From Aerococcus tenax (lineage in GTDB: Bacteria; Bacillota; Bacilli; Lactobacillales; Aerococcaceae), in contig NZ_CP127382.2 in assembly GCF_003286645.3 (NCBI RefSeq), positions 1,550,001 to 1,614,000 on the forward strand: 64,000 bases of DNA, written 5' to 3'. Numbering within the stretch: the stretch's first letter is position 1; the number at the start of each line of letters is the position of its first letter. The notes beneath the pieces were generated by a model. That model was not told the origin of the DNA, ran no database searches, and saw only the letters and a program-made list of their open reading frames with translations. Made by a program: the position numbers and the translations under genes. Of this stretch, positions 17,007 to 39,758 are shown piece after piece.

Positions 17007-18878
17007 ATGAGTGAATTTAAAGAAGTAACTTTTAAACCAGGCACCTATCATGTGCGTGCCAATGGGCATAACGGCTCTCTCCCCATGACAGTCGAGCTAT
17101 CTGAGCACCGGATCGAAAAAATCGAGGTCGATTCTAGCGGGGAAACCAAGGGGATCGCTAGCCCGGTCTTTACTGAAGTGCCCCAAGACATCATTACTGG
17201 GCAAACCTTAAATGTAGATACCGTCTCTGGTGCTACTGTGTCTAGCCACGGCATTATCGATGGGGTTGCCGACGCGGTTAAAGAAGCCGGTGCCGATCCA
17301 GAAGTCTTACGCCAACGTCCTAAGCCTGAAAAAGAAACCGCCCAAGATGAAAGCTTGGAAACGGATATCGTAGTCGTTGGTGGTGGTGGTGCTGGTCTAT
17401 CCGCAGCTGCTGCTAGTTTACAAAGCGGTAAAAAGGTTATCCTATTAGAAAAATTCCCAGTGATCGGTGGGAATACCGTCCGTACTGGTGGCCCCATGAA
17501 TGCAGCTGACCCTGAATGGCAAAATAAGTTTGAAGCACTTCCTGGTGAAGACCACACCCTCGAAGAAATCTACAATGTCGATGAAAGCGAAATCGACCAA
17601 GAATACTTAGAAGACTTCCGCGAATTAAGAAAACAAATTAAGGCTTACTTAGAGGAAGTTGATGGTAAGGACGAATACCTCTTCGACTCCACCCTCTTTC
17701 ACCGGATCCAAACCTACCTTGGCGGTAAACGGACTGACCTCAAGGGCAATCAAGTCTACGGGAATTATGACTTAGTCAAAACCCTTACCGATAATGTACT
17801 AGATTCCGTGCATTGGTTAGAAGATATCGGGGTTGAATTTAACTACGAAAGTGTTGCTATGCCAGTTGGGGCCATGTGGCGTCGTGGTCACCAACCAACC
17901 AGTGACAACGGCTATGCCTATGTCAAGAACCTCGAAAAATTCATCTTAGACAATGGCGGCCAAATCATCACTGATGCCCGCGTTAACGAATTAATCGTCG
18001 AAGACGACCGCGTCGTTGGAGTGAAAGCAGACCACCAAGGCGCTAGCTTAACCGTTAGAGCCAAAGCTGTTGTTTTAGGTTCTGGTGGTTTCGGGGCAAA
18101 CACTAAGATGCTCCAAGAATACAACACCTACTGGGAACGGATTGACGATGACATTAAAACCTCTAACTCCCCTGCCATCACTGGTGACGGGATTCAATTA
18201 GGGGAACAGGTCCACGCTGACTTAGTCGACATGGGCATGATCCAAATGCTCCCAACCTGTGACCCAGAAACTGGAGCCCTCTTCACCGGTCTACAAGTTC
18301 CACCAGCTAACTTCCTCATGGTCAACCAAGAAGGCAAACGTTTCGTTAATGAATTTGGTACCCGGGATGAAATTTCCAAGGCTGCCATCGCTAACGGCAG
18401 TCTCTTCTACTTAATTGCTGACGATGAAATTAAGAAAACGGCCTATAATACCAGCCAAGAAAAAATCGACCAACAAGTGGAAGATGGCACCCTCTTCCGG
18501 GCGGATACCATTGGCGAACTAGCAGAACAAATTGGGGTTGACCCTAGTGTGCTAGAAGAAACCGTAGCGACCTATAATTCTTATGTGGACCAAGGGGAAG
18601 ACCCTGATTTCCATAAGAACGCCTTCGATCTAAAGGTTGAAGTGGCTCCATTCTATGCGACCCCACGTAAACCTGCTGTCCATCACACCATGGGGGGCTT
18701 AAAGATCGATACCGATGCCCATGTCATTAACCAAGATGGTGAAATCATCAAAGGATTATACGCTGCTGGTGAAGTAGCTGGTGGTGTCCATGCCGGTAAC
18801 CGTTTAGGTGGTAACGCCTTAGCTGACATCTTTACCTATGGCCGAATTGCCGGTAAGAACGCTAGTCAAGAAGCTTAG
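17007..18878 (+). CDS. FMN-binding/FAD-dependent reductase (fumarate or urocanate reductase-like)
   Basis: The 623-residue protein has two parts. Residues 5-95 are an FMN-binding domain with DTVSGAT (71-77), the motif in which ApbE attaches FMN covalently to Thr (T77 here). From about 119 comes the flavocytochrome c/fumarate reductase domain: [14 protein letters not shown] for [16 protein letters not shown] with the active-site Arg, HHTMGGLKI with the His, and [17 protein letters not shown]. There is no signal peptide, so it acts in the cytoplasm. Fumarate, urocanate or a similar enoate may serve as electron sink. No ApbE gene is in the window. The promoter carries a cre site. Confidence 0.85.
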
Positions 18879-23608: not shown

Positions 23609-25246
23609 TTATTTAAGTAATTCTCTTTTTAATTTTTTTCGACAGATCGCTTGGATAGCGGGATGCCAGGGAAGATAATCTTCAAGCACTTTTTCACTTA
23701 GATGCTTTTCATTCGGCATGGCACTTAATAAGAAAGTGAGATATTTTTCAGGATCAAGGCCGTTGGCCTTAGCAGTTTCAATGATCGATAGAATAATTCC
23801 AGAATACTGAGCACCTTTAAAAGAGGTAGAAAATAACCAATTTTTTCTACCTATTACGAGTGCTTTTATGCCACGCTCTGCCCGGTTATTGCTCATTTCA
23901 ACCGCACCATTTTCCAAAAATGCTTTAAAATAAGCTTCATATTTTAAGGCATAGGCGATGGCTGTTACTAATTTTCCTCCAGCAGTAGATGATTCCTCAC
24001 GAAGGCGTTCGAAAAAGTGGTCAATTTTCACTTTTAAAATTTTCTGGCGTTTATCTAAACGTTCGGTTATCGATAAATCTTGCCATTTCTTTTCTAAAGT
24101 GAAAAATTGGTCACATTGTTTTACTGCCCATGAGCTGAGGAATTGACCTTGATATTTTTTAGGTGGTAAGGCATCATAAAACTTTCGTCTTAAATGCGCC
24201 CAACAGCCAGCAATAGTCACTCTATTTATTTTTGGATAGACATGCCACATATCGCAATGAATCACACCCTCATATTCAGCCATTCCCTTGGGAAGGTCAT
24301 TAAAGCCTCGCCCAGGAGAATGGTGGTAGAGATAGATTTGTTGCTGAGTTTCTCGAGAAGAGCACGTTAACCAGTAATAGGTCTTTTCTTTCTCATGCTC
24401 AATGACCTTATAACTCGTTTCATCCATATGGATGACTGGCTGTTTGATTAGCTTTCCAGAAAGCAGTCGATAAAGAGGCTCAAAGTAATATTCTGCTGCT
24501 TTTTCATGCCAATTAATGAGCGTTTGACGAGAGAGCGGTAAGCCCATCTTTTCCCATTCACCTTCCTGGCGGTAAGCAGGAATTTTCAGCTCATATTTTT
24601 GTTGAAGTGAGTGAGAGACAAGACCTGCGGTCGCATAGCTCCCATTAAAGACAGGTTTTGGAACATCCGCACTGATCACCATTTCTTTCCCCGCTTTTTC
24701 TGAACAATTCGTACATTTATAGCTATGCTGAATAACATTCTCACAACGAATTTCCGCAGGAACGTAGCGTAACTGTTGGCGAATCTTCTTTTGGCCAATT
24801 TCTGCCATTTCTTGTTGACATCCAGAGCAATTGCGATCTTCACCTTCTAAGGTGTAATGAAGATCATAATCAGGAAAATTGTCAAGAATTACTTGTTTAC
24901 GACCTTTTGGTCGTTTTTTGCGACGATAACTAATCGTTTCAAAAGTTTCATCCTCTTTTTCACTGATCAAATCACTAGCATCGACTTCGAAAAGACTTAG
25001 CTGATTATTATCCACTAAGTTTTCTTTCGAACGACCATAGAGCTTTTTCTTCAAATAGTGAATCAATTCATCTTGATGAGCAATCGTTACTTCTTTATTT
25101 TTTAGTAGTTTATTCTGATGATTTAATTCATTCTGTTTATTGTCGATGGATGACTGCTGACTGTCGATGACACGTTTTTGATGATTGATCATTTTCTTCA
25201 ATACTTTAATTTCCTCAAGTAATTGCTGTTCTCTATTTGAAGCCAT
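23609..25246 (-). CDS. tnpC: IS66-family transposase (TnpC, DDE type)
   Basis: The 545-residue protein begins MASNREQQ. I choose the ATG at 25246 because AAGGAGG lies six bases upstream, although the frame is open to 25375. Domains in order: an N-terminal coiled coil (about 5-65), a linker, a Cys4 zinc finger (CSGCQQEM and KCTNCSEK), and the IS66 catalytic region with Asp in IHMDETSYK, Asp in IHCDMWHVY and Glu in SNNRAERGIK, then the C-terminal IS66 tail (SIIETAKANGLDPEKYL). It appears intact. It is preceded by tnpB with a 56-base gap. Confidence 0.93.
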   Translation of the reverse strand: MASNREQQLLEEIKVLKKMINHQKRVIDSQQSSIDNKQNELNHQNKLLKNKEVTIAHQDELIHYLKKKLYGRSKENLVDNNQLSLFEVDASDLISEKEDETFETISYRRKKRPKGRKQVILDNFPDYDLHYTLEGEDRNCSGCQQEMAEIGQKKIRQQLRYVPAEIRCENVIQHSYKCTNCSEKAGKEMVISADVPKPVFNGSYATAGLVSHSLQQKYELKIPAYRQEGEWEKMGLPLSRQTLINWHEKAAEYYFEPLYRLLSGKLIKQPVIHMDETSYKVIEHEKEKTYYWLTCSSRETQQQIYLYHHSPGRGFNDLPKGMAEYEGVIHCDMWHVYPKINRVTIAGCWAHLRRKFYDALPPKKYQGQFLSSWAVKQCDQFFTLEKKWQDLSITERLDKRQKILKVKIDHFFERLREESSTAGGKLVTAIAYALKYEAYFKAFLENGAVEMSNNRAERGIKALVIGRKNWLFSTSFKGAQYSGIILSIIETAKANGLDPEKYLTFLLSAMPNEKHLSEKVLEDYLPWHPAIQAICRKKLKRELLK

Positions 25247-25302
25247 AGTCATCCTCCTTACTGTTTTTCCTATTTTACCAATTGTTTTGGAAAATGAAAA
25301 TT

Positions 25303-25653
25303 TCAATAAAACTTTTTCTTTTGTGTTTTTCTTACAGAACTTTCGATAGAAAAACCATCGAGTAACCATTGCCACTGTTGCTTTGAAATCTGTTTCAATT
25401 CTCTATGAGTCTTAGGCCATTGCATTTTACCATCTTCAAATCGTTTGTAGAATAGCCAAAAGCCACTGCCATCCCAATAGAGTGCTTTAAAACGATCATT
25501 GCGGGTTCCACAAAATAAAAATAATGACTGACTGAACGGATCCATTTTAAATTCTTCCTGAACAATAGTTGTTAGCGAATCAATTCCTTTCCTTAAATCA
25601 GTTTTGCCGTAGGCAATGTAAATATGATGAAGGTCATCCATATTAATAATCAT
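25303..25653 (-). CDS. tnpB: IS66 accessory protein TnpB
   Basis: The 116-residue protein has the IS66 Orf2 pattern: YGKTDLRKGIDSL, LFLFCGTRNDRFKALYWDGSGFWLFYKRFEDGKMQWP. It is needed together with TnpC for IS66 transposition, in an unknown role. The ATG at 25653 follows GGAGG. The usual upstream tnpA gene is absent: only 77 bases remain to the right end of the element. Confidence 0.92.
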   Translation of the reverse strand: MIINMDDLHHIYIAYGKTDLRKGIDSLTTIVQEEFKMDPFSQSLFLFCGTRNDRFKALYWDGSGFWLFYKRFEDGKMQWPKTHRELKQISKQQWQWLLDGFSIESSVRKTQKKKFY

Positions 25654-25949: not shown

Positions 25950-28900
25950 TTATTTGTTTTTCCGTTTGCTTGGAAGGGCTAGGATTGCTCCTGCGGCAAC
26001 TAACAAGAGTTCCAAGGCTACTGGTGCTGCCACCACACCGGTCTTAGGTAGGCTGGCGTTGGCATTTTCAGTTTGAGCGGCTTTTTCAGTTTGAGTTTCT
26101 TTCTCTTCCACTCGGTTAAGCTTTGGACTTGCTGTAGCAGCGGTTTGAGTGTCTTCCTTAGCACTGGTTTCAGTAGATTGATCGGTCTTTGCTTGTTGAC
26201 TGTGATCAGTTACTGTTGGTTGGCTTGGTTGTTGAATGTGATCACTTTCTTGACTTGGGTGATCCTTGTCTTCTACCTTAGGAGCTGAAGGATGACTAGG
26301 TTCAGGACTTGGACTAGCTGGTTCAGGACTTGAAGGACAAGGTAGCGGTGAAGTTGGAATTTCTTCCACAAGCACTTCTCCTAGTTTTGAAACCTTCTTA
26401 TCCTTGCCTTGAGCAGTCGCAGTAATCTTATCCTTGGCTTTCAGTGTAACTCCATCAGGAACTGGAACAAGGAAATTGCCGTCTTTATCAGCAGTTACTT
26501 CAACCGGCTTATCTAGACCTGGAATCGTCACAATAACCTTAGCGAAGGCTTCCGTCTTACCACTGATTTGCTTGTCCCCTTCCTTCACTTTATCGAAGAC
26601 TGGTGGCAAGGTGGTTTCACGTTCAGCAAAGACTTTATCTTTTTCGATGAGATCTGTGGTGCCATCTGGATAGGTAAAGACCGCATTACCGTCTTTATCG
26701 ATGGTAATCACCGTATCTTTAGGTAGATCTTTATTAAAGTCTTTCAACGATTTGACTGCTTGGTCTTGTTCTTCTTTAGTGATCTTATTCAAGTCATCCA
26801 CCAAGGTAATCACTGGTTTAGGTGTGTATTTTTGACTTTGATCGCTGACAGTGACTTTGGCTTCCACCGTGTCTGTGGTCCCGTCTGGGTAAGTGACCTT
26901 CACTGGAACGGTAATCACATCGCCATCTTTGGCACCTTCTGGTACCTTAACGGTTAGGCTACCGTCTTTGTTGACGGTCACACCTTGAGGCGCGTCCTTA
27001 CCGAGTTCGTACTTCGTACCTTCAGGAACCGTGGTTGGGTTATTACCTTTGTCTGTGAAGTTTGGTTTTTCTACCGGAACTTCTTGACCTGGAGTACCTG
27101 TCTTGTCGTCATACTTAGGTTCGACTTTTTGACTTTGGTCCTTCACAGTAACCTTGGCTTCAACAGTATCTTTGGTCCCATCTGGATAAGTTACTTTCAC
27201 AGGAACCGTAATCACATCACCATCTTTGGCACCTTCTGGTACCTTAACGGTTAGGCTACCGTCTTTGTTGACGGTCACACCTTGTGGAGCGTCTTTACCA
27301 AGTTCGTACTTGGTGCCTTCTGGAGCCTTAGTTGACTTCCCATCTTTGTCGGTGAAGTTTGGTTGTTTCACTGGCACTTCTTGACCTGGAATACCTGTCT
27401 CATCCTTGTATTTAGGTTGAACTTTTTGACTTTGGTCAACAACCGTCACTTTAGCTTCCACAGTGTCTGTAGTTCTGTCTGGGTAAGTGACCTTCACTGG
27501 AACGGTAATCACGTCGCCGTCTTTAGCGCCTTCTGGAACCTTAACGGTTAGGCTACCATCTTTGTTGACGGTCACACCTTGTGGAGCGTCTTTACCAAGT
27601 TCGTACTTCGTACCTTCAGGAACCGTGGTTGGGTTATTATCTTTGTCTGTGAAGTTTGGTTTTTCTACCTTAGCTTCTTTACCTGGAGTCCCCGGTGTAT
27701 CCTCGTACTTAGGTTTGAATTCTTCTTTTTGTTGTTTAACGACTTGGGCGGTGAATTCCTTATCCTCTGTAATTTCTTTACCGACTTGGTCATATTTATC
27801 GTAAGCCCAGGTTGTGGTTTCATCAGCAGAAGGTTTATGATAGTTGACCTTATATTTTTCATCAGGAGAAACTTTTGGCAGAGCAACTTTTTGCTCTTTA
27901 CCATTCTTGTCCTTGCCAACTAAGTTCGCGCCATCTTCAGAAATTTTGACGCCCGCTTTTGGATTGACGAAGTAAACCTTATCAGCATCCGCTTGGTCTA
28001 ATTTCCCGCCTTCAACATCTTTAAAGGTTACCTTTACATAACCGTCAGGCTTGCCTTGTCCGGAATCAGCCGGAATGATTTCGTCAAGTTTTCTATAAAC
28101 AAGTTCTAGGGTGGCATTCTTTTGTGGGTTAAAGCTTTGATTTTGACCGTTAACTTGTGGTCTTTCAAAGACGTAACCAACAAATTTAGGAGCAGAAAAG
28201 TCCTTTTGCCCGGCGTATTCGATTACCCGACTATCGCGTTTGCCTTCAATCTCACTTGGATACTTGTCTTCAGCTTCTGCTCTAAACTTAGGATCAATAT
28301 CCTTGCCATCACTAGTTACATATCTCACGTTGGCGTAACTTGGGCGTTGAACATGGATGAGATAAGGAATAGGAGTTGGCTTATCTTCGCCTGGTAGGGT
28401 CACATTGATCGTACCCTCGACATCCTTTTCTTCAGCATCAGCTGGTGCCTTGTAGGTAATTTCACCGGTCTTTGGATCCACGGTTAAACCAGTTGGATTG
28501 CTTACGCCATCTCCACTTGGCAATTCAAATTTTGTGCCTTCAGGGAATTTGTAGTTAGGGTCATCCTTCTTACTTGGTGTGATCGCTGAGGTCACTGTAT
28601 TCCCCGCTTGAACGGTCTTTTCTGGATAGCTAGCAGTTACCAAAGGCGCTGATTCCGTGAATTTGACTGTCGTCTTGCCGTCTTTTTCTTTAGAGTTTGG
28701 ATCTTTAATACGGATAGAAATATTGCCTGATTGGTCAACCGTAATGTCATCATCAGATAGGCCAAGCGCTTTGTTGCGTTCTTTTATCTTAGCTTTGATG
28801 GACGCGATTTCATTTGGGTTTAAGTTAGCAGGATCTTTTACCAGGGTTTCCTTGATCTTCTCAGAGTAATAGATAGCGGTTGCTACGAATTCATTAGAAA

Positions 28901-30752
28901 TATTCTCTTCATTGAAGCGATCACTATCCTTATGCTTATCGGCAATGGCTCTCCCGGTAAAGTTTTGGATCCCAATTTGGTGTTTTAATCCTGAAGCATC
29001 GAACTCTTCGGTGATTCTAGCCTTAACAGCGGCCCGTACTTGCGCATCTGTGGTTCCTTTTGGATCGTCTGGAGAGTTGAGTGCATTTAACTTTTTATAG
29101 TCAACTCCTGCTGCGTTCTCAAGTTCTTCAGGAGTAATCTTTTCTGTGTCTAAATTCTTAATGATTGTGCCATTTTTAGTCCGTAAGACACGAACCCTAA
29201 AAATATTAGTGAAGGATTGGAAGTAATCTTGAGGTTTGTCGGCGTGACTACCAATACCATATTTCCCCCAAACCTCATATTTACCATCTTTTTTACGAGG
29301 TTCATTATTCGATTTATTGTAAGTTCCCGAAAGAACCAAGAACTTATTTCCATCCTTGTCTTTTTGAATGGCATACTTGAATTTAGATGGGTATCCCTTA
29401 TTACCAATACCAGTCCCATTAGCACCCCAAAGGTCTTTATATTCCTTGTCATTTCTTACTGGAACCTTAATAGGATTGGTCAGTGGATAGGCTTCATTCA
29501 CACCTTCTTTGTGGAAGACTAAGATATCCTTCACAAAACCAAAGTTAGAAATAAAATAATCCCGCGGAATGACCGTAGAGAAGTCACCCTCAGTAATTGT
29601 TAGATTTCCCTTGTCATCTACAGAGTAATTGGGATCTTTTAAGCCTAAGTTCGTATTGACTGCCTTAAAGTCATTAATAATTTTATTCTTTTCTGCTTCA
29701 GTTAAGGTGTAGTTGTTTGGATCAGCGACATTCAATTTCCCTGCATTATGGGAAGAGTGGCTGGAACGCACATGATCATCTTTTTTATAATAGTCTTTCT
29801 TATCAGGCTTAGAATGTGGCGTTTCAAATTTAGTTAAGTCTTTTTCCCATGAAGTATAGGATGGTCTGAAATAAAGGGCTTTTACCTTGATGGTCTTGCT
29901 TACATTTCCTTGTTTCAAGGTAACTATAACGTCACCACTATTTTCAACCCGAGCTGGACCTCCTGTCCTAGCAAGAGCTTGATCAAAGGAAGCCTTGTCG
30001 ACGGTATAGGTAACGTCATCTCCCAATCCCTTATCTCTAAGCGCTTCTTTGACAAAGTCTGCGATTTCTGCTTGAGTTGTCACATTTTTTCCTTCGTTAA
30101 AGTAATCATGTGAGAAGATACCCGCATATTCTGGTAATTGTACCTTATCTAATGAGGTATAGGTAACGGCAGAATCCCCCTCATAGTTCACCGCCCGAAC
30201 TTCAGAATTTTCGGAAGCTGCATCCAGTTTGGGGGCAGGTTTTTCTTCTCCCTTTTCAGGTTGAGCAACTTCGTTTGCAGGTTTTTCAGCCTGTGGAGAA
30301 GCTGCCTTCTCTACGTTACTTACTTTATTATCTTTTTCATCAGATACTGGTTGAACTTCAGCTGTAGGCTCAACTTTAGCAGGTTTTGACGCTTCTGGTT
30401 GAGCCGGAGCTACTTGACCAGTTTGGGCTGGTTTTACCGCTTCTGGCTGAACTTCAGCTGGCTTGCTGCTTGCTTGAGTATTGGAAGCAGGCGTTTCAGC
30501 ATGAACAGCTTCAGGTTGTACTGGACTATTTTTATTTTCTTTTGCATTCTCATCGACAACAGTAGCAGAACTTGGTAGCGTGTCAGCAGCTTGGAGTTCA
30601 GCGGCTTGGACAATAGCCCCTTGCCCTAGAAAACTCAATCCTACCGAAACAGCTACTGAAAATACACCTATTTTAAGATTCTTGATAGCATAGTGATAGT
30701 TCCGTTGACTACGCTTACGTATCTGCTCATGTTGATTATTTTTACTTAACAT
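25950..30752 (-). CDS. LPXTG-anchored surface protein with Rib/alpha-like repeats
   Basis: The 1600-residue cell-wall protein has a YSIRK-type signal peptide (YAIKNLKIGVFSVAVS, cleavage near 51 after IVQAA), and a Pro/Ala/Glu-rich spacer (about 55-185). A large unclassified N-terminal region (about 190-650) follows, then Ig-like segments, and a MucBP-like segment (about 800-890). Three Rib/YPDG-type repeats of about 98 residues come next, then another Ig-like domain (VFDKVKEGDKQISGKTEAFA), a Ser/Pro-rich stalk and LPKTG at 1568-1572 with a hydrophobic helix and KRKNK tail. I start at the second ATG (30752) because AGAGGA is six bases before it. A single Cys (PTSPLPCPSS) in the stalk is unusual. 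Sortase A should anchor it. Likely an adhesin, by family. Confidence 0.93.
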   Translation of the reverse strand: MLSKNNQHEQIRKRSQRNYHYAIKNLKIGVFSVAVSVGLSFLGQGAIVQAAELQAADTLPSSATVVDENAKENKNSPVQPEAVHAETPASNTQASSKPAEVQPEAVKPAQTGQVAPAQPEASKPAKVEPTAEVQPVSDEKDNKVSNVEKAASPQAEKPANEVAQPEKGEEKPAPKLDAASENSEVRAVNYEGDSAVTYTSLDKVQLPEYAGIFSHDYFNEGKNVTTQAEIADFVKEALRDKGLGDDVTYTVDKASFDQALARTGGPARVENSGDVIVTLKQGNVSKTIKVKALYFRPSYTSWEKDLTKFETPHSKPDKKDYYKKDDHVRSSHSSHNAGKLNVADPNNYTLTEAEKNKIINDFKAVNTNLGLKDPNYSVDDKGNLTITEGDFSTVIPRDYFISNFGFVKDILVFHKEGVNEAYPLTNPIKVPVRNDKEYKDLWGANGTGIGNKGYPSKFKYAIQKDKDGNKFLVLSGTYNKSNNEPRKKDGKYEVWGKYGIGSHADKPQDYFQSFTNIFRVRVLRTKNGTIIKNLDTEKITPEELENAAGVDYKKLNALNSPDDPKGTTDAQVRAAVKARITEEFDASGLKHQIGIQNFTGRAIADKHKDSDRFNEENISNEFVATAIYYSEKIKETLVKDPANLNPNEIASIKAKIKERNKALGLSDDDITVDQSGNISIRIKDPNSKEKDGKTTVKFTESAPLVTASYPEKTVQAGNTVTSAITPSKKDDPNYKFPEGTKFELPSGDGVSNPTGLTVDPKTGEITYKAPADAEEKDVEGTINVTLPGEDKPTPIPYLIHVQRPSYANVRYVTSDGKDIDPKFRAEAEDKYPSEIEGKRDSRVIEYAGQKDFSAPKFVGYVFERPQVNGQNQSFNPQKNATLELVYRKLDEIIPADSGQGKPDGYVKVTFKDVEGGKLDQADADKVYFVNPKAGVKISEDGANLVGKDKNGKEQKVALPKVSPDEKYKVNYHKPSADETTTWAYDKYDQVGKEITEDKEFTAQVVKQQKEEFKPKYEDTPGTPGKEAKVEKPNFTDKDNNPTTVPEGTKYELGKDAPQGVTVNKDGSLTVKVPEGAKDGDVITVPVKVTYPDRTTDTVEAKVTVVDQSQKVQPKYKDETGIPGQEVPVKQPNFTDKDGKSTKAPEGTKYELGKDAPQGVTVNKDGSLTVKVPEGAKDGDVITVPVKVTYPDGTKDTVEAKVTVKDQSQKVEPKYDDKTGTPGQEVPVEKPNFTDKGNNPTTVPEGTKYELGKDAPQGVTVNKDGSLTVKVPEGAKDGDVITVPVKVTYPDGTTDTVEAKVTVSDQSQKYTPKPVITLVDDLNKITKEEQDQAVKSLKDFNKDLPKDTVITIDKDGNAVFTYPDGTTDLIEKDKVFAERETTLPPVFDKVKEGDKQISGKTEAFAKVIVTIPGLDKPVEVTADKDGNFLVPVPDGVTLKAKDKITATAQGKDKKVSKLGEVLVEEIPTSPLPCPSSPEPASPSPEPSHPSAPKVEDKDHPSQESDHIQQPSQPTVTDHSQQAKTDQSTETSAKEDTQTAATASPKLNRVEEKETQTEKAAQTENANASLPKTGVVAAPVALELLLVAAGAILALPSKRKNK
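26826..27720 (-). repeat. Three tandem repeats of about 295 bp within the surface protein gene
   Basis: Each unit encodes PKY-D-TG-PG, then KPNFTDK, PEGTKYELGKDAPQGVTV, NKDGSLTVKVPEGAKDGDVI and TYPDGTTDTVEAKVTV. The stretch from PEGTKYELGKD to VPVKVTYPD is identical in all three at the protein level and nearly so in DNA. The first unit has YPDR instead of YPDG. Units this similar are prone to expansion and contraction by recombination. Confidence 0.9.
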
Positions 30753-30783
30753 AAACATTCCTCTTTTTAATAAATAATATTTT

Positions 30784-32364: not shown

Positions 32365-32478
32365 GTTTATTTCCTCCGTTTACTTTACGATTGTTGCGTA
32401 TCACAATTGGTTTCCGGGGCCGATCGTGGGGCAAACAATACCGTCTAATATCATAGCTATAATTTCAACTAAAGTCAA
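32365..32478 (-). promoter_or_regulatory. rplM promoter and leader
   Basis: On the minus strand TTGACT (32473-32478) and TATGAT (32450-32455) are exactly 17 bases apart. The transcript should start near 32443. The leader contains a hairpin ATTGT/ACAAT and purine-rich GGGGCCGGAAACC-like sequence, and may be an autoregulatory L13 leader as in other firmicutes, which is inference. Confidence 0.7.
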
Positions 32479-34048: not shown

Positions 34049-34852
34049 CTAATAAAAGCCGTTCGCCTCTGACTTAGCAATGCGTTCCGCTCGACTGGGA
34101 TAGTCCACATGGTGCAAGTAGAGACCATGTGCCTTGGCAGTAGGTCCCGCGGCGTTCCGGTCTTGAATGCTTAACAAGTCACTGAGATTCTCCACCGGAC
34201 GGAGACCATCGCCAATCTGCAAGCAAGTCCCCACAATAATCCGCACCATATTGTAGAGAAAACCATTGCCCTCAAAATAAAAAGTCAAAGCCTGTCCATC
34301 CTCAGATGCCTGACATTCCGCCCGGTAAATCTCCCGGTCAAAGACGGTTTTATCCGTTTTAGTGGAGCAGAAACTCTTAAAGTTATGCGTCCCTATTAAG
34401 GCCGGCAAGGCGGCTTGAATCCGAGAAACATCAGTACGATAGGGATGGTGGAGGACGTAGTGGCGGTCAAAAGGTGAAACAAAGGGGGCCAAGGAGACCT
34501 TATATAAGTAAGCCTTTCTCAAGGCATGGTAGCGAGCGTGGAAGTGTTTTTCCACTGGTTCAACCGTCTTCACACAAATGGCATCATCCAAGATGCTATT
34601 CAATGCCCGTAATAAGCCCTCGGTTTCGATTTCTGAAGGATAGTCAAAGTGAACCACTTGCCCCAGGGCATGGACGCCAGAATCGGTACGACCGGACCCA
34701 TAAACCGGAATCTCTTGACCCTTCGTCATTAATTTCAGGGCCTTTTCCAGGGCCGCTTGGATACTGGGACCATTGGGTTGGACTTGAAATCCCACATAGG
34801 GAGTACCATCATAAGCAATCGTCGCTTTATAGCGTTGTGGCATAATTATCAA
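34049..34852 (-). CDS. truA: tRNA pseudouridine synthase A
   Basis: The 267-residue enzyme makes pseudouridine at positions 38-40 of tRNA anticodon arms. Visible motifs are YKATIAYDGTPYVGFQ near the start, the catalytic Asp in GSGRTDSGVHALGQV, and LYNMVRIIVGT in the C-terminal half. The start is uncertain: TTG at 34852 is eight bases after AAGGAG, and an ATG lies three codons further in. It is the last gene after ecfT (93-base gap), its usual place in firmicutes. Confidence 0.95.
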   Translation of the reverse strand: MIIMPQRYKATIAYDGTPYVGFQVQPNGPSIQAALEKALKLMTKGQEIPVYGSGRTDSGVHALGQVVHFDYPSEIETEGLLRALNSILDDAICVKTVEPVEKHFHARYHALRKAYLYKVSLAPFVSPFDRHYVLHHPYRTDVSRIQAALPALIGTHNFKSFCSTKTDKTVFDREIYRAECQASEDGQALTFYFEGNGFLYNMVRIIVGTCLQIGDGLRPVENLSDLLSIQDRNAAGPTAKAHGLYLHHVDYPSRAERIAKSEANGFY

Positions 34853-34945: not shown

Positions 34946-35740
34946 TTAGGACCTAAAGATTAATATTGCTAGGCAAACGCAAGCCACTAGGCCAATAGCC
35001 ACAGTATCGCGTTGGTGCCAGTGGAGTAAACGGTATTTGGTCCGCCCTTCGCCCCCTTGGTAACCACGCGCTTCCATCGCAATGGATAAGTCATAGGCGC
35101 GGTCAAAAGCCGAGACAAAGAGAGGCACCAGGATCGGAATAATGGCCTTGATCCGGCTCATTAAGGACCCCTCGCTAAAGTCAACCCCACGAGCCCATTG
35201 AGCGTCCATAATCTTGTCCGTCTCTTCTAATAAGGTTGGTACAAAGCGTAATGCAATGGACAGCATTAAGGCAATTTCGTGGACTGGTAGAATATTCTTT
35301 AAGGGCTTCATCAAACTTTCCAAGCCATCGGTAATATCCAGGGGTTTGGTGGTTAAGGTAAGAATGGTAGAAATGAAAATAATGTAAACGAAACGTAAAA
35401 AGATAAATAAGGCGTTCCATAAGCCTTCATCAGTGATGGCTAAAAAGCCCCATTGCCAGTAAACTTCCCCTGTCCGGGTAAAGAATAACTGCAAGGCCAC
35501 CGTAATTAGGATCAATAGGATCATGGGCTTTAACCCTTTGAGAAAAATTTTCAAAGAAATTCCGGTCAGCCAGACAAAGGCCACCACTAAGAGGCCTAAG
35601 ATCCCATAAGTCAGGCCATTATTGGCGAAGAAGATAAAGATTAGTAAGATGAACATGATGATCAATTTGGCCCGTGGATCCATTCGGTGGACCAGGGAAT
35701 CACCGTTCAAATAACGTCCCATAATAAATTTATTCTTCAT
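34946..35740 (-). CDS. ecfT: Energy-coupling factor transporter transmembrane protein EcfT
   Basis: The 264-residue protein has about five helices (MDPRAKLIIMFILLIFIFFA start) and the two cytoplasmic coupling helices with Ala-Arg-Gly signatures (QWARGVDF and AMEARGYQ) that contact the two ATPases. It pairs with exchangeable vitamin-binding S components encoded elsewhere. It overlaps ecfA2 by 11 bases, so the genes are translationally coupled. Confidence 0.96.
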   Translation of the reverse strand: MKNKFIMGRYLNGDSLVHRMDPRAKLIIMFILLIFIFFANNGLTYGILGLLVVAFVWLTGISLKIFLKGLKPMILLILITVALQLFFTRTGEVYWQWGFLAITDEGLWNALFIFLRFVYIIFISTILTLTTKPLDITDGLESLMKPLKNILPVHEIALMLSIALRFVPTLLEETDKIMDAQWARGVDFSEGSLMSRIKAIIPILVPLFVSAFDRAYDLSIAMEARGYQGGEGRTKYRLLHWHQRDTVAIGLVACVCLAILIFRS

Positions 35741-36608
35741 CTTGAACCTCCCCTAGTTCAAAATAGTTAAGAATACTATCCGCGAGTTGGTCAACGGTTA
35801 GCGGATTGTCCTGGAGTTGAATTCCAGCTTGGTCAGCTAAAACCGCCTTAAATTCTAAACTATCAGGTAGTGACAGGCTATGGTCTCTGAGCCAGTCAGC
35901 ATCAGAAAAGATTTCTTCTGTGGGCCCTTGACGGACCACCGTTCCTCGGTTCATCACGACAATATGATTGGCATATTGGGCAGCATCATTCATTTGATGG
36001 GTCACTAGAACCACCGTTAACTGGCGTTCCTTATAGAGTCGATAGAACATAGCCATCATATCCCGGTGACCTTTTGGGTCCAAACCAGCTGTGGGTTCGT
36101 CCAAGACTAAGACCTGGGGCTCCATGGCAAGGATCCCAGCAATGGCTACCCGGCGCATTTGTCCACCTGATAAGTCGAAGGGCGATTGGTCATATAATTC
36201 ACTTGGCAAACCAACCAGGTCCAGGGCTTCAATGGCTTTTTGACGGGCTTCTTCCTCACTGGCTCCGTAGTTTAAGGGGCCAAACATGACATCTTTGAGG
36301 ACGGTTTCTTCAAAAAGTTGCGACTCAGGAAACTGAAAGACAATCCCTACTTGGCTACGAATACGGCGTAGGATTTCTCCTTTAGAGTTCTTGGTCACTT
36401 GGTCTGGACCAATTTGAACGGTTCCTTGGGTAGGCTTTAAGAGGCCGTTAAGGTGTTTGATGGCGGTTGACTTCCCACTACCGGTATGTCCAATAAAGGC
36501 GGTAAAACTTTGGTCGGGAATGGTTAAATTGACATCATGCAAAGACAAGGTTTCAAAGGGAGTACCTGCCCCATAAGCATAACTTACGCCTTGGAATTCA
36601 ATTTGCAT
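35730..36608 (-). CDS. ecfA2: Energy-coupling factor transporter ATPase EcfA2
   Basis: The 292-residue ATPase has Walker A GHTGSGKST, Q-loop VGIVFQFPESQLFEETV, signature LSGGQMRRVAIAG, Walker B VLVLDEPTAGLDP and switch His in LVTHQMND. FQFPE(S/Y)QLF is the distinguishing block of EcfA2. It forms a heterodimer with EcfA1 and couples ATP use to EcfT. It overlaps ecfA1 by 25 bases. Confidence 0.96.
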   Translation of the reverse strand: MQIEFQGVSYAYGAGTPFETLSLHDVNLTIPDQSFTAFIGHTGSGKSTAIKHLNGLLKPTQGTVQIGPDQVTKNSKGEILRRIRSQVGIVFQFPESQLFEETVLKDVMFGPLNYGASEEEARQKAIEALDLVGLPSELYDQSPFDLSGGQMRRVAIAGILAMEPQVLVLDEPTAGLDPKGHRDMMAMFYRLYKERQLTVVLVTHQMNDAAQYANHIVVMNRGTVVRQGPTEEIFSDADWLRDHSLSLPDSLEFKAVLADQAGIQLQDNPLTVDQLADSILNYFELGEVQDEE

Positions 36609-37423
36609 AACCAGTCCACCAACCCTTCTTCAGTATAATAATCTTTTTCAAAGGAAAAACCACCTTGGGCTAGGGCATTTTTTAATTGCACACTAAAGGG
36701 CACGCCTAGTCCCATATCGATCAACTTATCCCCATAAGAAAATATTTCTGCCGGTTTGCCCTCATTAACGATTTCTCCCTGACGAAAAACCAAAATCCGG
36801 TCGGCACTGGCCGCTTCACTTAAGTCATGGGTTATAGATAGGACGGTGAGCTGGCTCTTTTCCTTCAGACGGCGGATAACTTCCATCACTTCTTCGCGCC
36901 CTTCTGGATCCAACATGGAGGTAGCTTCATCCAAGATAATCACCCGGGGCTGAAGAGCAATAATGCCTGCAATGGCTACCCGTTGTTTTTGCCCTCCTGA
37001 TAAGTTGCTGGGCTCATATTGCCGATAAGCCGACATGCCGACCTCTTCTAGGGCCCAATTGACCCGCTCGACCATTTCATCGTGTGGCACCGCAGCATTC
37101 TCTAAGCCAAAAGCCACATCGTCTTCAACCGTGGCTCCAACGAATTGGTTGTCAGGATTTTGAAAAACCAGGCCGATATTTTGCCGGATCGTCCAGACAT
37201 TGGCTTCATTAAGTGCTAAACCCGCCACGGTAATCTGGCCGGATTCCGCTTCTAATAACCCATCAATTAGTTTGGCCATGGTAGATTTTCCTGAGCCATT
37301 ATGACCGATAATGGCTACCCATTCTTGGTCAAAGATATCAAAAGAAACCTGTTTGATGGTTTGTTTGTCTTCTTCTTTATCGTAGCGAAAGCTAACATCT
37401 TTGACAGAGATGATCGACTCCAA
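36584..37423 (-). CDS. ecfA1: Energy-coupling factor transporter ATPase EcfA1
   Basis: The 279-residue ATPase has Walker A GHNGSGKST, the EcfA1-type Q-loop VFQNPDNQFVGATVEDDVAFGLEN, signature LSGGQKQRVAIAG, Walker B VIILDEATSMLDP and switch His in SITHDLSEA. The start is TTG at 37423, five bases after GGGGAG. It is the first gene of ecfA1-ecfA2-ecfT(-truA) and directly follows an FMN riboswitch and its terminator, so expression of the whole module should fall when FMN is plentiful. Confidence 0.96.
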   Translation of the reverse strand: MESIISVKDVSFRYDKEEDKQTIKQVSFDIFDQEWVAIIGHNGSGKSTMAKLIDGLLEAESGQITVAGLALNEANVWTIRQNIGLVFQNPDNQFVGATVEDDVAFGLENAAVPHDEMVERVNWALEEVGMSAYRQYEPSNLSGGQKQRVAIAGIIALQPRVIILDEATSMLDPEGREEVMEVIRRLKEKSQLTVLSITHDLSEAASADRILVFRQGEIVNEGKPAEIFSYGDKLIDMGLGVPFSVQLKNALAQGGFSFEKDYYTEEGLVDWLCKLNSKA

Positions 37424-37440
37424 GTTTTCTCCCCATTTCT

Positions 37441-37615
37441 AAAATAAAACCCTCCGTTCTAATTAACGGAGGGGCTATAGTTATCGTATTCACTCTTCTC
37501 CTATCAGACTTTACTGTCGGTACTAGAATTACACTAGTTCATTCCTATCAATCCCTTGATAGCTTGCGGACTTTTACCGCCGGTCGGGAAACGCTCCCTG
37601 CCCCGAAGATATCTG
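37441..37615 (-). promoter_or_regulatory. FMN riboswitch with terminator, controlling ecfA1-ecfA2-ecfT
   Basis: On the minus strand the conserved RFN pieces occur in order: CTTCGGGGCAGGG (37596-37608), TCCCGACCGGCGGT, AGTCCGCAAGC, a variable stem ATCAAGGGATTGAT, CTAGTGTAATTCTAG, ACCGACAGTAAAGTCTG and AGGAGAAGAG (to about 37492). The flanks ATCTTC and GAAGAG pair as P1. After about 20 bases comes a terminator, CCCTCCGTT/AACGGAGGG with TTTTATTTT (37441-37473), then the ecfA1 ribosome site. FMN binding should favour termination. Confidence 0.93.
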
Positions 37616-37628
37616 TAAATCTTTTATT

Positions 37629-37657
37629 AGTGTAACGGAACCAGTGCTATATTTCAA
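37629..37657 (-). promoter_or_regulatory. Promoter of the FMN-riboswitch/ecf operon
   Basis: On the minus strand TTGAAA (37652-37657) and TACACT (37629-37634) are 17 bases apart, placing the start of transcription just before the aptamer. It lies within 40 bases of the oatA stop codon. Confidence 0.6.
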
Positions 37658-37665
37658 CTGATTTA

Positions 37666-39549
37666 TCACTTATTATCTTCAATTAGTGCCCGTCCCACAT
37701 AGTCTGTCCAAGCCTTGACCCCCGCTTTTGAGAAGTGGATGCCATCTTGACTGAGCCAATCGGCTTGGGCATTTTGATCATAGTAAGTGGACCAGTCAAT
37801 TAATTGACAGTCCTTTCGACTATCAGCGGTTGCCTTCAAGGCCTCGTTGACTTGTTGACGCCAAGGCCGGTTGACATGGGTATTGACCAGGTAAATCTTC
37901 TTACCTTCAAAGCGTTTCAGTAATTGGTTAATTTGTTGGGAAGTAAAGCCACCATTGGCGCCTAAGTCTACCACCACTTTATCCTGGATCTCATTCTCAG
38001 CGCTAAAGCTATCGATTAGTTCACCAGCTTGGTAGACTTGAAGTCCCACCTTGGCACAAATATTAGACCGTGGGAAGAGGGCCGTAATCCCCTTAGAGAC
38101 ATCGATGGTTAAGGAGTCTCCTAAGAAGGTAAAACTGAGACCGTTAGCCTGGTAGAGGACCTCATTAGAGAAGTCACTTACGATGGCTTGTTGGTCTTGG
38201 CTGAGCGATTGCCGGTATTTTTCAATATCTTCATCACTATCACTAGCAATGGTATGCTTTTCCCGGTTAGCTTGTTCGATCGCTTCACGGGCCTCTCGGG
38301 CTTCAGCCTCAGACTTGAGCACCACTTCGCCCTTGGGTGCCGTCACTAAGGCAAAAAGCGCCAGGGCTAGAACCAGGGTAAATCCCCAAAAGAGGACTTT
38401 TTGGTACCAGGGGGTCTCCTTAGACCGGACTTGACGAAAACCAGTAATTAAACGGAGCGGCTCCCCTTTAGGGCGCAAATAAATCGGTATTGTCACTAAG
38501 CGCTGGTTAACCAAGGCATCTAGGAGAAGGCCAATCACAAAGATAGCTAAGACCTGTAACCAAGGTTGCATGGTAAACCAGTTCTGTTGGCTGGCATGGG
38601 CAGTAAAGACAATATAGATGGGATAGTAGGTCAGATAGACGAAATAATTCTTCCGTCCGATAAAGGCCAAGGGCTTAAAGCGAAGAATCTTACCAATAAA
38701 GGATTGGTCTTGGACAATAGCTAAAACAAATAAGACTACCAATAGGTCAAAGACCAACATACCCCCGTAGTAAGTCCATATGGAAGAATCCGTCAAGAAC
38801 TTCATCAAGACTGCTAATATACCAGCAGTCACTAGGGCAATTAAGTCTGGCGTCCAAGACGTCTTAAGTAGCCGATATGAGAAGCCTATAATTTCTTCCC
38901 CCATTAAGAAAGCGATACTCCCTAATAAAAAGGAAAATAAGCGGCTATCGGTCCCATAATAGGCCCGGCTGGGGTCTTGACCCGGAGTAAAGAGAAAAGC
39001 CATCCAGGCCACTGAAATCAAGGCTAAAACAATCAAGAAATAAGTAAAATGCTGCTTAGACATACGCCGCCGCAGTAAGCCATAGATGAAATAAAAGACC
39101 ACAAGCGACTGTAGGTAGACCCCTAAGTACCAGAGATGGGTTAAAAGCGAGGGGTGGAGAAATTCAGCAAAATAGGAAGACCCGATGGCAATCTGATACC
39201 AGTTATTGACAAAGGCCAAGCTGGAAAAGACCACTGGGCGAATATTGGTTAACAGCTCAGCTTGAAAAAGGAGTAGGAGCGCTAGCAAGAGAATAATAAA
39301 AAAGACCAAGGGCCAAAACATCTTCCCTAAGCGCCTGAAAAACTGCCAGCCCAGTCTGAAGGACTTGCCCTCCCTTAAGCGCCGTTCTAACTGACTGGTC
39401 ACCAAATAACCCGATAGGATTAAGAATATATCCACCGCTAAAAAGCCACCCGGCAAGGAATTGGTGAAGAAATGATAGCAAATGATGGCAAGCATGGCAA
39501 AGAGCCTCAGAGTATCTAGCTGAGGTAAATATAGCCGTTCTTGGCGCAT
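37666..39549 (-). CDS. oatA: Peptidoglycan O-acetyltransferase OatA-like (acyltransferase 3 + SGNH)
   Basis: The 627-residue protein has an N-terminal acyltransferase-3 membrane domain with about ten helices (LPQLDTLRLFAMLAIICYHF, with its conserved His, and GGFLAVDIFLILSGYLVT). An eleventh helix and charged linker (about 385-470) follow, then an extracellular SGNH esterase-like domain: GDS at 477-479, GANG at about 530 and D602xxH605. This is the layout of OatA, which O-acetylates muramic acid and gives lysozyme resistance. It lies between rplQ and ecfA1, which are usually adjacent. Confidence 0.9.
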   Translation of the reverse strand: MRQERLYLPQLDTLRLFAMLAIICYHFFTNSLPGGFLAVDIFLILSGYLVTSQLERRLREGKSFRLGWQFFRRLGKMFWPLVFFIILLLALLLLFQAELLTNIRPVVFSSLAFVNNWYQIAIGSSYFAEFLHPSLLTHLWYLGVYLQSLVVFYFIYGLLRRRMSKQHFTYFLIVLALISVAWMAFLFTPGQDPSRAYYGTDSRLFSFLLGSIAFLMGEEIIGFSYRLLKTSWTPDLIALVTAGILAVLMKFLTDSSIWTYYGGMLVFDLLVVLFVLAIVQDQSFIGKILRFKPLAFIGRKNYFVYLTYYPIYIVFTAHASQQNWFTMQPWLQVLAIFVIGLLLDALVNQRLVTIPIYLRPKGEPLRLITGFRQVRSKETPWYQKVLFWGFTLVLALALFALVTAPKGEVVLKSEAEAREAREAIEQANREKHTIASDSDEDIEKYRQSLSQDQQAIVSDFSNEVLYQANGLSFTFLGDSLTIDVSKGITALFPRSNICAKVGLQVYQAGELIDSFSAENEIQDKVVVDLGANGGFTSQQINQLLKRFEGKKIYLVNTHVNRPWRQQVNEALKATADSRKDCQLIDWSTYYDQNAQADWLSQDGIHFSKAGVKAWTDYVGRALIEDNK

Positions 39550-39615: not shown

Positions 39616-39703
39616 CTAAAAAAGCGCAAAAAAAAAGACATATAAAATGTCTCAATAAAAAACAAACTTTTTCACCCCTAGACTTCTGCCTAGGGATGAA
39701 AGA
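39616..39703 (-). terminator. Terminators at the end of the rplQ operon
   Basis: On the minus strand two hairpins follow the rplQ stop at 39759: CCCTAG/CTAGGG (39676-39700) and GACAT/ATGTC followed by nine T (39623-39648). They should end the long S10/spc/alpha transcript before oatA. Confidence 0.7.
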
Positions 39704-39758
39704 GCTAGACTCGGAAAGAGACAAAGGCCTCTCTCCATCATCATAACACTCAAAAGTT

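Follow-up and report, generated by a model that had tools for sequence, protein, structure and literature searches.

A predicted FMN riboswitch upstream of the shared ECF energizing module in Aerococcus and other Bacillota

A survey of 1133 genomes collected 842 FMN riboswitches, and the targets outside riboflavin biosynthesis given in its Table 1 include neither ecfA nor ecfT (parts of PMC4418817). A second survey sorts FMN riboswitches into two categories, riboflavin biosynthesis and riboflavin transporters (parts of PMC3766115). On the transport side, S components compete for one ECF motor (parts of PMC7755397). The literature that we searched, with most subscription papers and RegPrecise outside its scope, yielded no report of an FMN switch before the ECF motor, nor any explanation of what determines motor levels in the cell. 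The shared ECF energizing module located downstream of rplQ is termed 'group II'. Here, we describe a module of this kind with an FMN riboswitch in its leader.

The window is the whole stretch of DNA that was analysed, 64,000 nucleotides from Aerococcus tenax. On its minus strand, the locus reads rpoA, rplQ, L17DE element, acyltransferase gene, promoter-like site, aptamer, terminator, ecfA1, ecfA2, ecfT, truA. The ribosomal genes around ecf, including rplQ, and rpoA were named by reading unless a profile is cited. The individual features, in window coordinates, are as follows:

37666..39549, minus strand, upstream acyltransferase gene, oatA-like (PF01757, 71.3 bits, cut-off 31)
37629..37657, minus strand, promoter-like site TTGAAA-17-TACACT (consensus scan, 9 of 12 matches)
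37489..37614, minus strand, FMN riboswitch aptamer, RFN element (RF00050, 90.1 bits, E 2.7e-19)
37600..37604, minus strand, GGGGC of J1/2, candidate antiterminator strand (duplex with the terminator 5' arm, -12.1 kcal/mol)
37471..37475, minus strand, GCCCC, where the terminator 5' arm begins, candidate pairing partner for J1/2 (duplex analysis)
37450..37473, minus strand, intrinsic terminator hairpin with a 9-bp stem and a 6-nt loop (scan and folding, z -4.65)
37440..37449, minus strand, terminator U-tract (sequence and scan)
36584..37423, minus strand, ecfA1 with a TTG start (TIGR04520, 394.9 bits, cut-off 315)
35730..36608, minus strand, ecfA2 (TIGR04521, 387.6 bits, cut-off 330)
34946..35740, minus strand, ecfT (PF02361, 180.7 bits, cut-off 25)
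34049..34852, minus strand, truA, the next gene downstream, possibly on the same transcript (TIGR00071, 201.7 bits)

EcfA1, EcfA2 and EcfT are encoded together, each exceeding the cut-off of its profile (TIGR04520, TIGR04521 and PF02361, respectively), in line with the gene names assigned by the sequence-only reading; against TIGR02454, ecfT scored 95.7 bits, below the cut-off of 111.8. No S gene lies between ecfA1 and truA in the window. The operon is the rplQ-linked shared energizing module and not a ribU operon. A displaced ribU leader was ruled out as an explanation of the aptamer, whose neighbours in the window are the acyltransferase gene and ecfA1. In G001, the nearest genome compared (42% of sampled 31-letter words in common with the window), the ribU switch is found about 0.8 Mb away from the ecf switch. 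Two known cis elements of ribosomal protein genes are present in the window, the L13 leader at 32384-32442 and the L17 downstream element at 39673-39752. Farther away lie pieces of group II intron RNA (RF02001, RF01998 and RF00029; 4649-6448) around two minus-strand ORFs of 273 and 194 aa, a transposase of the IS66 family (23609-25375), and a 1602-aa ORF (25950-30758) that, by reading, resembles a surface protein anchored to the cell wall, with many repeats and an LPKTG-type motif at its C-terminus. Pfam also recovered the five flavin enzymes that had been listed for the window (Oxidored_FMN twice, Bac_luciferase, Nitroreductase, and FMN_bind with FAD_binding_2), which do not test the regulatory claim.

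The RF00050 model was matched over its full length (positions 1-138 of 138) at 37614-37489 of the minus strand, and the score of 90.1 bits compares with a gathering score of 66.2. The E-value, computed for both strands of the whole window, rules out a chance match. Helices P2-P6 of the six-way junction are present, and P1 is short, with five standard pairs and three non-standard ones among the eight of the model. Folded alone, the 126-nt aptamer was not unusually stable (z -1.63; 12 of 200 shuffles equally good), and its identity is thus based on the family match and on conservation rather than on folding stability. A consensus fold of 14 aptamers from ecf leaders recovered P2, P3, P5 and P6, and four of the 21 base pairs in this alignment were doubly changed with pairing kept.

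We compared the leader with that of G001. The aptamer (126/126), the spacer between aptamer and terminator (15/15) and the segment from the U-tract to the start codon (26/26) were identical, and the three differences in the terminator all fell inside its six-base loop. The flanking genes have diverged, with identities of 91.8% for the acyltransferase gene, 94.8% for ecfA1, 91.8% for ecfA2 and 92.2% for ecfT. An identical leader amid diverged genes would fit a working switch and not a relic.

The terminator stem consists of nine perfect pairs and is followed by the tail TTTTATTTTA. Its folding energy is -16.0 kcal/mol (z -4.65), and none of 200 shuffles folded equally well. The sequence-only reading had placed a complete RFN aptamer and an intrinsic terminator directly before the shared ECF module; the full-length family match, the hairpin and the gene profiles all bear this out. 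Its entry does not mention that every element is on the minus strand. The 18 bases that it gave between terminator and ecfA1 are counted from 37441; from the U-tract end at 37440 to the ecfA1 start at 37423 there are 16. For the separate promoter that it named, a TTGAAA-17-TACACT site is present, but the 2.4 kb scanned contained five sites of this quality where 3.6 would be expected, which is chance level and makes the site weak evidence. Readthrough from the oatA-like gene, proposed as a refutation, does not refute the switch because the readthrough transcript would carry aptamer and terminator, so that the same switch would apply.

Each of the 13 leaders examined (the window, nine genomes of the genus, the named locus L140, and the genomes G463 and G528) has a hairpin and a U-tract separating the aptamer from ecfA1. 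In this comparison, hairpin energies were -15.0 kcal/mol in the window, -11.5 to -18.0 kcal/mol in the other leaders of the genus and -15.4 kcal/mol in G528; the terminators of L140 (-4.4 kcal/mol) and G463 (-3.9 kcal/mol) are weak. Candidate antiterminators draw on strands of P1, J1/2 or J6/1. They are GGGGC with GCCCC in the window, G001 and G006, UGGAAGA with UCUUCCA in G004, G008, G012 and G015, GGAUGGG with CCCAUC(C) in G009 and G013, and the P1 5' strand in L140. In the window, a fraction of 0.106 of shuffled arms paired equally well, so the duplex is suggestive only. The same test with the better strand gave 0.270 for G001, 0.088 for G006, 0.084 for G004, 0.086 for G008, 0.038 for G015, 0.078 for G012, 0.046 for G013, 0.018 for G009, 0.344 for G010 and 0.012 for L140; most single leaders thus showed no clear excess over shuffled arms. 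In the solved riboswitch, the switching sequence lies in residues 6-11, J1/2 included (parts of PMC7573352), which fits the J1/2 proposal. The ecf leaders are consistent with antiterminator pairing.

The layout of aptamer, candidate antiterminator and terminator points to an FMN-OFF switch, and an FMN-OFF transcription attenuator that co-regulates the motor with RibU is the most likely mechanism. At low FMN, part of the aptamer (GGGGC of J1/2 in the window) would pair with the terminator 5' arm, RNA polymerase would read through, and the motor would be made. At high FMN, the ligand would hold P1 and the junction, the terminator would form, and motor levels would fall. Since ribU of G001 has its own FMN switch, the riboflavin S component and the motor would rise and fall together. 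Solitary S components that take up folate, thiamine and other vitamins could draw on the rplQ-linked motor too, and flavin status would set their motor capacity as well. Control of the shared motor by the switch is well supported by architecture and conservation; throttling of other vitamins by FMN is plausible.

The sequence-only reading had stated that FMN riboswitches normally precede ribU or riboflavin synthesis genes. Among 83 FMN matches in 60 relatives, 55 precede ribU and 19 ribD, i.e., 74 of 83 agree with this statement, and nine precede ecfA1 (clustering assigned 54, 17 and 9, respectively, and three singletons were placed by reading). A second unusual target, argF in G019, was ruled out because the switch there precedes ribD. 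The nine ecfA1-linked matches all fall within Aerococcus, each of whose 15 genomes has one ecfA1 at E up to 1e-80, and occur in G001, G004, G006, G008, G009, G010, G012, G013 and G015. In the other six (G002, G003, G005, G007, G011 and G014), nhmmer, and cmscan up to E 5, revealed no aptamer in the ecfA1 leader, even degenerate. In these six (L213-L218), ecfA1 is nevertheless preceded by a hairpin and U-tract (-10.5 to -19.6 kcal/mol), and the leaders gave no Rfam family; the hairpins are possibly another, unrecognised attenuator.

The arrangement recurs outside the genus. An aptamer just upstream was found by nhmmer and confirmed by cmscan in 3 of 80 named ecfA1 loci, namely L085 and L092 from Aerococcus (L085 and G009, which share the same FMN matches, are taken as one genome) and L140 from an Erysipelotrichaceae MAG. 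L092 comes from A. agrisoli and falls with G010 in the ecfA1 tree; together with the match between G009 and L085, this placed the 15 genomes in Aerococcus. The nhmmer profile recovered the aptamer in 84 of 84 earlier loci, but was built from the aptamers in those loci. In the family of L140, 72 of 77 genomes have ecfA1 and two carry the aptamer directly upstream (G398 and G463); in a sample of 109 Bacillota genomes, ecfA1 was present in 78 (E up to 1e-65) and the aptamer preceded it in G001 and G528. For these two samples, the RNA searches were run with stricter filters that lose weak matches, and the overlap with ecfA1 was established by reading the listed places. The gene orders are rpsM-rpsK-rpoA-rplQ-FMN-ecfA1-A2-T-truA in G463 and rpoA-rplQ-FMN-ecfA1-A2-T-truA-rplM-rpsI in G528. 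Thus, the housekeeping module itself bears the switch outside Aerococcus. In G398, two further FMN switches (L221 and L225) stand, by reading, in front of two distinct RibU-like membrane proteins. A survey of relatives had been proposed as a check on conservation. The arrangement proved to be conserved in part of the genus: it is present in nine of 15 genomes, with six of the 15 lacking the aptamer, and recurs in Erysipelotrichaceae and in G528.

The ecfA1 tree, whose 24 rows comprise 12 that have the switch and 12 that do not, requires four changes of the FMN label. In the best aptamer tree (54 rows, 118 columns), the ecf aptamers of Aerococcus are split, and the clade of the window stands beside a ribU aptamer of G030, a member of another genus; a single ecf clade for Aerococcus was not rejected (p-AU 0.413). 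Separate gains of the ecf switch across lineages are the simple reading, but the aptamer tree does not have the resolution needed for proof.

Junction J6/1 bears on whether the aptamer of the window works, and on which ligand it would bind. It reads AUAGGA in the window, G001 and G006, one base short of the consensus GAUGGGA. We take the absent base to correspond to G97 or G98 in the numbering of a reference aptamer; on this mapping, one of the two is absent in all three aptamers, and the remaining flavin contacts appear present. The residues checked were A48, A85, A99, G10, G11, G62, G84 and G98 (names from parts of PMC7573352, PMC7824784 and PMC10809319). The A85-G98 pair lines the flavin, and A99 forms a hydrogen bond with it (parts of PMC7824784 and PMC10809319). 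The shortened J6/1 and the short P1 could mark a decayed or ligand-deaf copy whose terminator sets a fixed expression level, and the terminator-like hairpins retained by the six aptamer-less genomes make a constitutive attenuator conceivable. We consider such decay unlikely: none of the 126 bases has changed relative to G001, against a divergence of 5-8% in nearby genes; in the remaining seven genomes of the genus with an ecf aptamer, the usual junction is kept (four of the seven were also aligned); and the short J6/1 (GAUAG) also occurs in a ribU aptamer of G030. In G001, the ribU aptamer is likewise altered at this site, and with these two ribU aptamers as precedents the aptamer of the window is likely functional. 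Less probable still is a shift to another flavin-like ligand. The window, G001 and G006 do have non-consensus bases at and beside J6/1, and rare FMN-riboswitch variants of C. difficile with a changed pocket bind lumichrome or lumiflavin, yet the known variant precedes an efflux gene and acts as an ON switch (parts of PMC11477304), and other members of the genus have ordinary junctions before the same gene as in the window. Overall, the switch is very likely genuine and working, and the aptamer would be expected to bind FMN.

How far the consequences reach beyond riboflavin depends on the S components and on riboflavin demand. G001 has eight PF12822 matches at E up to 0.01, five of them over the cut-off; FolT, ThiT, ThiW and an NF010182 protein passed NCBIfam cut-offs, and RibU, with no NCBIfam name over a cut-off, was identified because it belongs to the large ribU cluster, whose members have FMN leaders. 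Rfam placed an FMN switch before ribU, a THF switch before folT and TPP switches before thiT and thiW; the other four S loci had no Rfam match. The genes folT, thiT and thiW stand alone in the loci read, and hence probably depend on the shared motor. Several S components in G001 support the earlier statement that EcfA1-A2-T serve many of them, but G001 has three EcfT genes in all, so that not every S component need depend on the rplQ-linked motor. At L210 (G001:C1:91500-95000), the NF010182 S component is followed by an ATPase ORF, with an EcfT near by at 95318, apparently a dedicated ECF module. A single family search for ribH found the gene in seven of 18 genomes (G002, G003, G004, G008, G010, G012 and G015); it was not found in G001, G006, G009 (85% complete), G013, G398, G463 and G528, which have the switch, or in G005, G007, G011 and G014, which are without it. 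Five of the nine switch-bearing Aerococcus genomes therefore have ribH, and the motor switch occurs both with and without riboflavin synthesis.

It comes close to an even chance that the motor is simply matched to RibU demand, and that partial termination or other motors spare the remaining vitamins in practice. The FMN switch on ribU and the additional EcfT genes in G001 would suit such plain co-regulation, as would G002 and G003, in which the sole FMN match precedes ribD and neither ribU nor ecfA1 has a switch. With ribH missing in four of the nine switch-bearing Aerococcus genomes and in G398, G463 and G528, riboflavin import may dominate demand; five switch-bearing genomes of the genus do have ribH, however, and the solitary folT, thiT and thiW of G001, with their own THF and TPP switches, probably need the shared motor. 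A role in flavin trafficking overall, with the ATPases also powering flavin export for extracellular flavoproteins, seems improbable. Flavinylation in Listeria requires ECF ATPases, and S and T subunits of the EetB/FmnA type export flavin there (parts of PMC9973259); the window, too, encodes an FMN_bind and FAD_binding_2 protein (17007-18878). Against this, the NF010182 S protein of G001 has its own ATPase ORF directly after it and an EcfT in the vicinity. Our main reading, to which we assign a probability of roughly 80%, is that a genuine transcription-termination FMN riboswitch controls ecfA1-ecfA2-ecfT and co-regulates the motor with RibU, and that motor capacity for other vitamins would follow.

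We put forward a broader proposal more tentatively, at somewhat less than even odds. FMN might act as a general governor of B-vitamin import, with the shared motor under the riboswitch of one vitamin and the S components under their own, an arrangement that Aerococcus and at least two further lineages of Bacillota would have reached independently; flavin excess would lower, and starvation raise, the uptake capacity for folate, thiamine and other vitamins. A flavin switch on the motor and, in the same genome, TPP and THF switches on individual S components would form a two-level circuit, and its recurrence in separate lineages is more suggestive of a selected logic than of an accident. If this holds, riboflavin would have cross-vitamin effects. 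Roseoflavin acts on FMN switches (parts of PMC11477304) and could then, in bacteria with this arrangement, reduce the import of several vitamins simultaneously.

Among described systems, the lumichrome and lumiflavin variants of C. difficile resemble the aptamer of the window in being FMN-type with a pocket region off consensus, but, compared by description only, they differ in gene context and expected direction, the change here being a one-base shortening of J6/1 (parts of PMC11477304). With the FMN riboswitches of ribU/ypaA and ribD (RF00050), the switch shares the aptamer class, the leader position and a terminator-type expression platform; the operon that it precedes is the shared motor ecfA1-A2-T, in contrast to a riboflavin-specific S component or biosynthesis genes. 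The locus also has the properties of the shared (group II) ECF module, with EcfA1, EcfA2 and EcfT in order, truA at the end and ribosomal protein genes alongside, but it is distinguished by a ligand-sensing leader; among the 80 named ecfA1 loci, an upstream aptamer was found in three.
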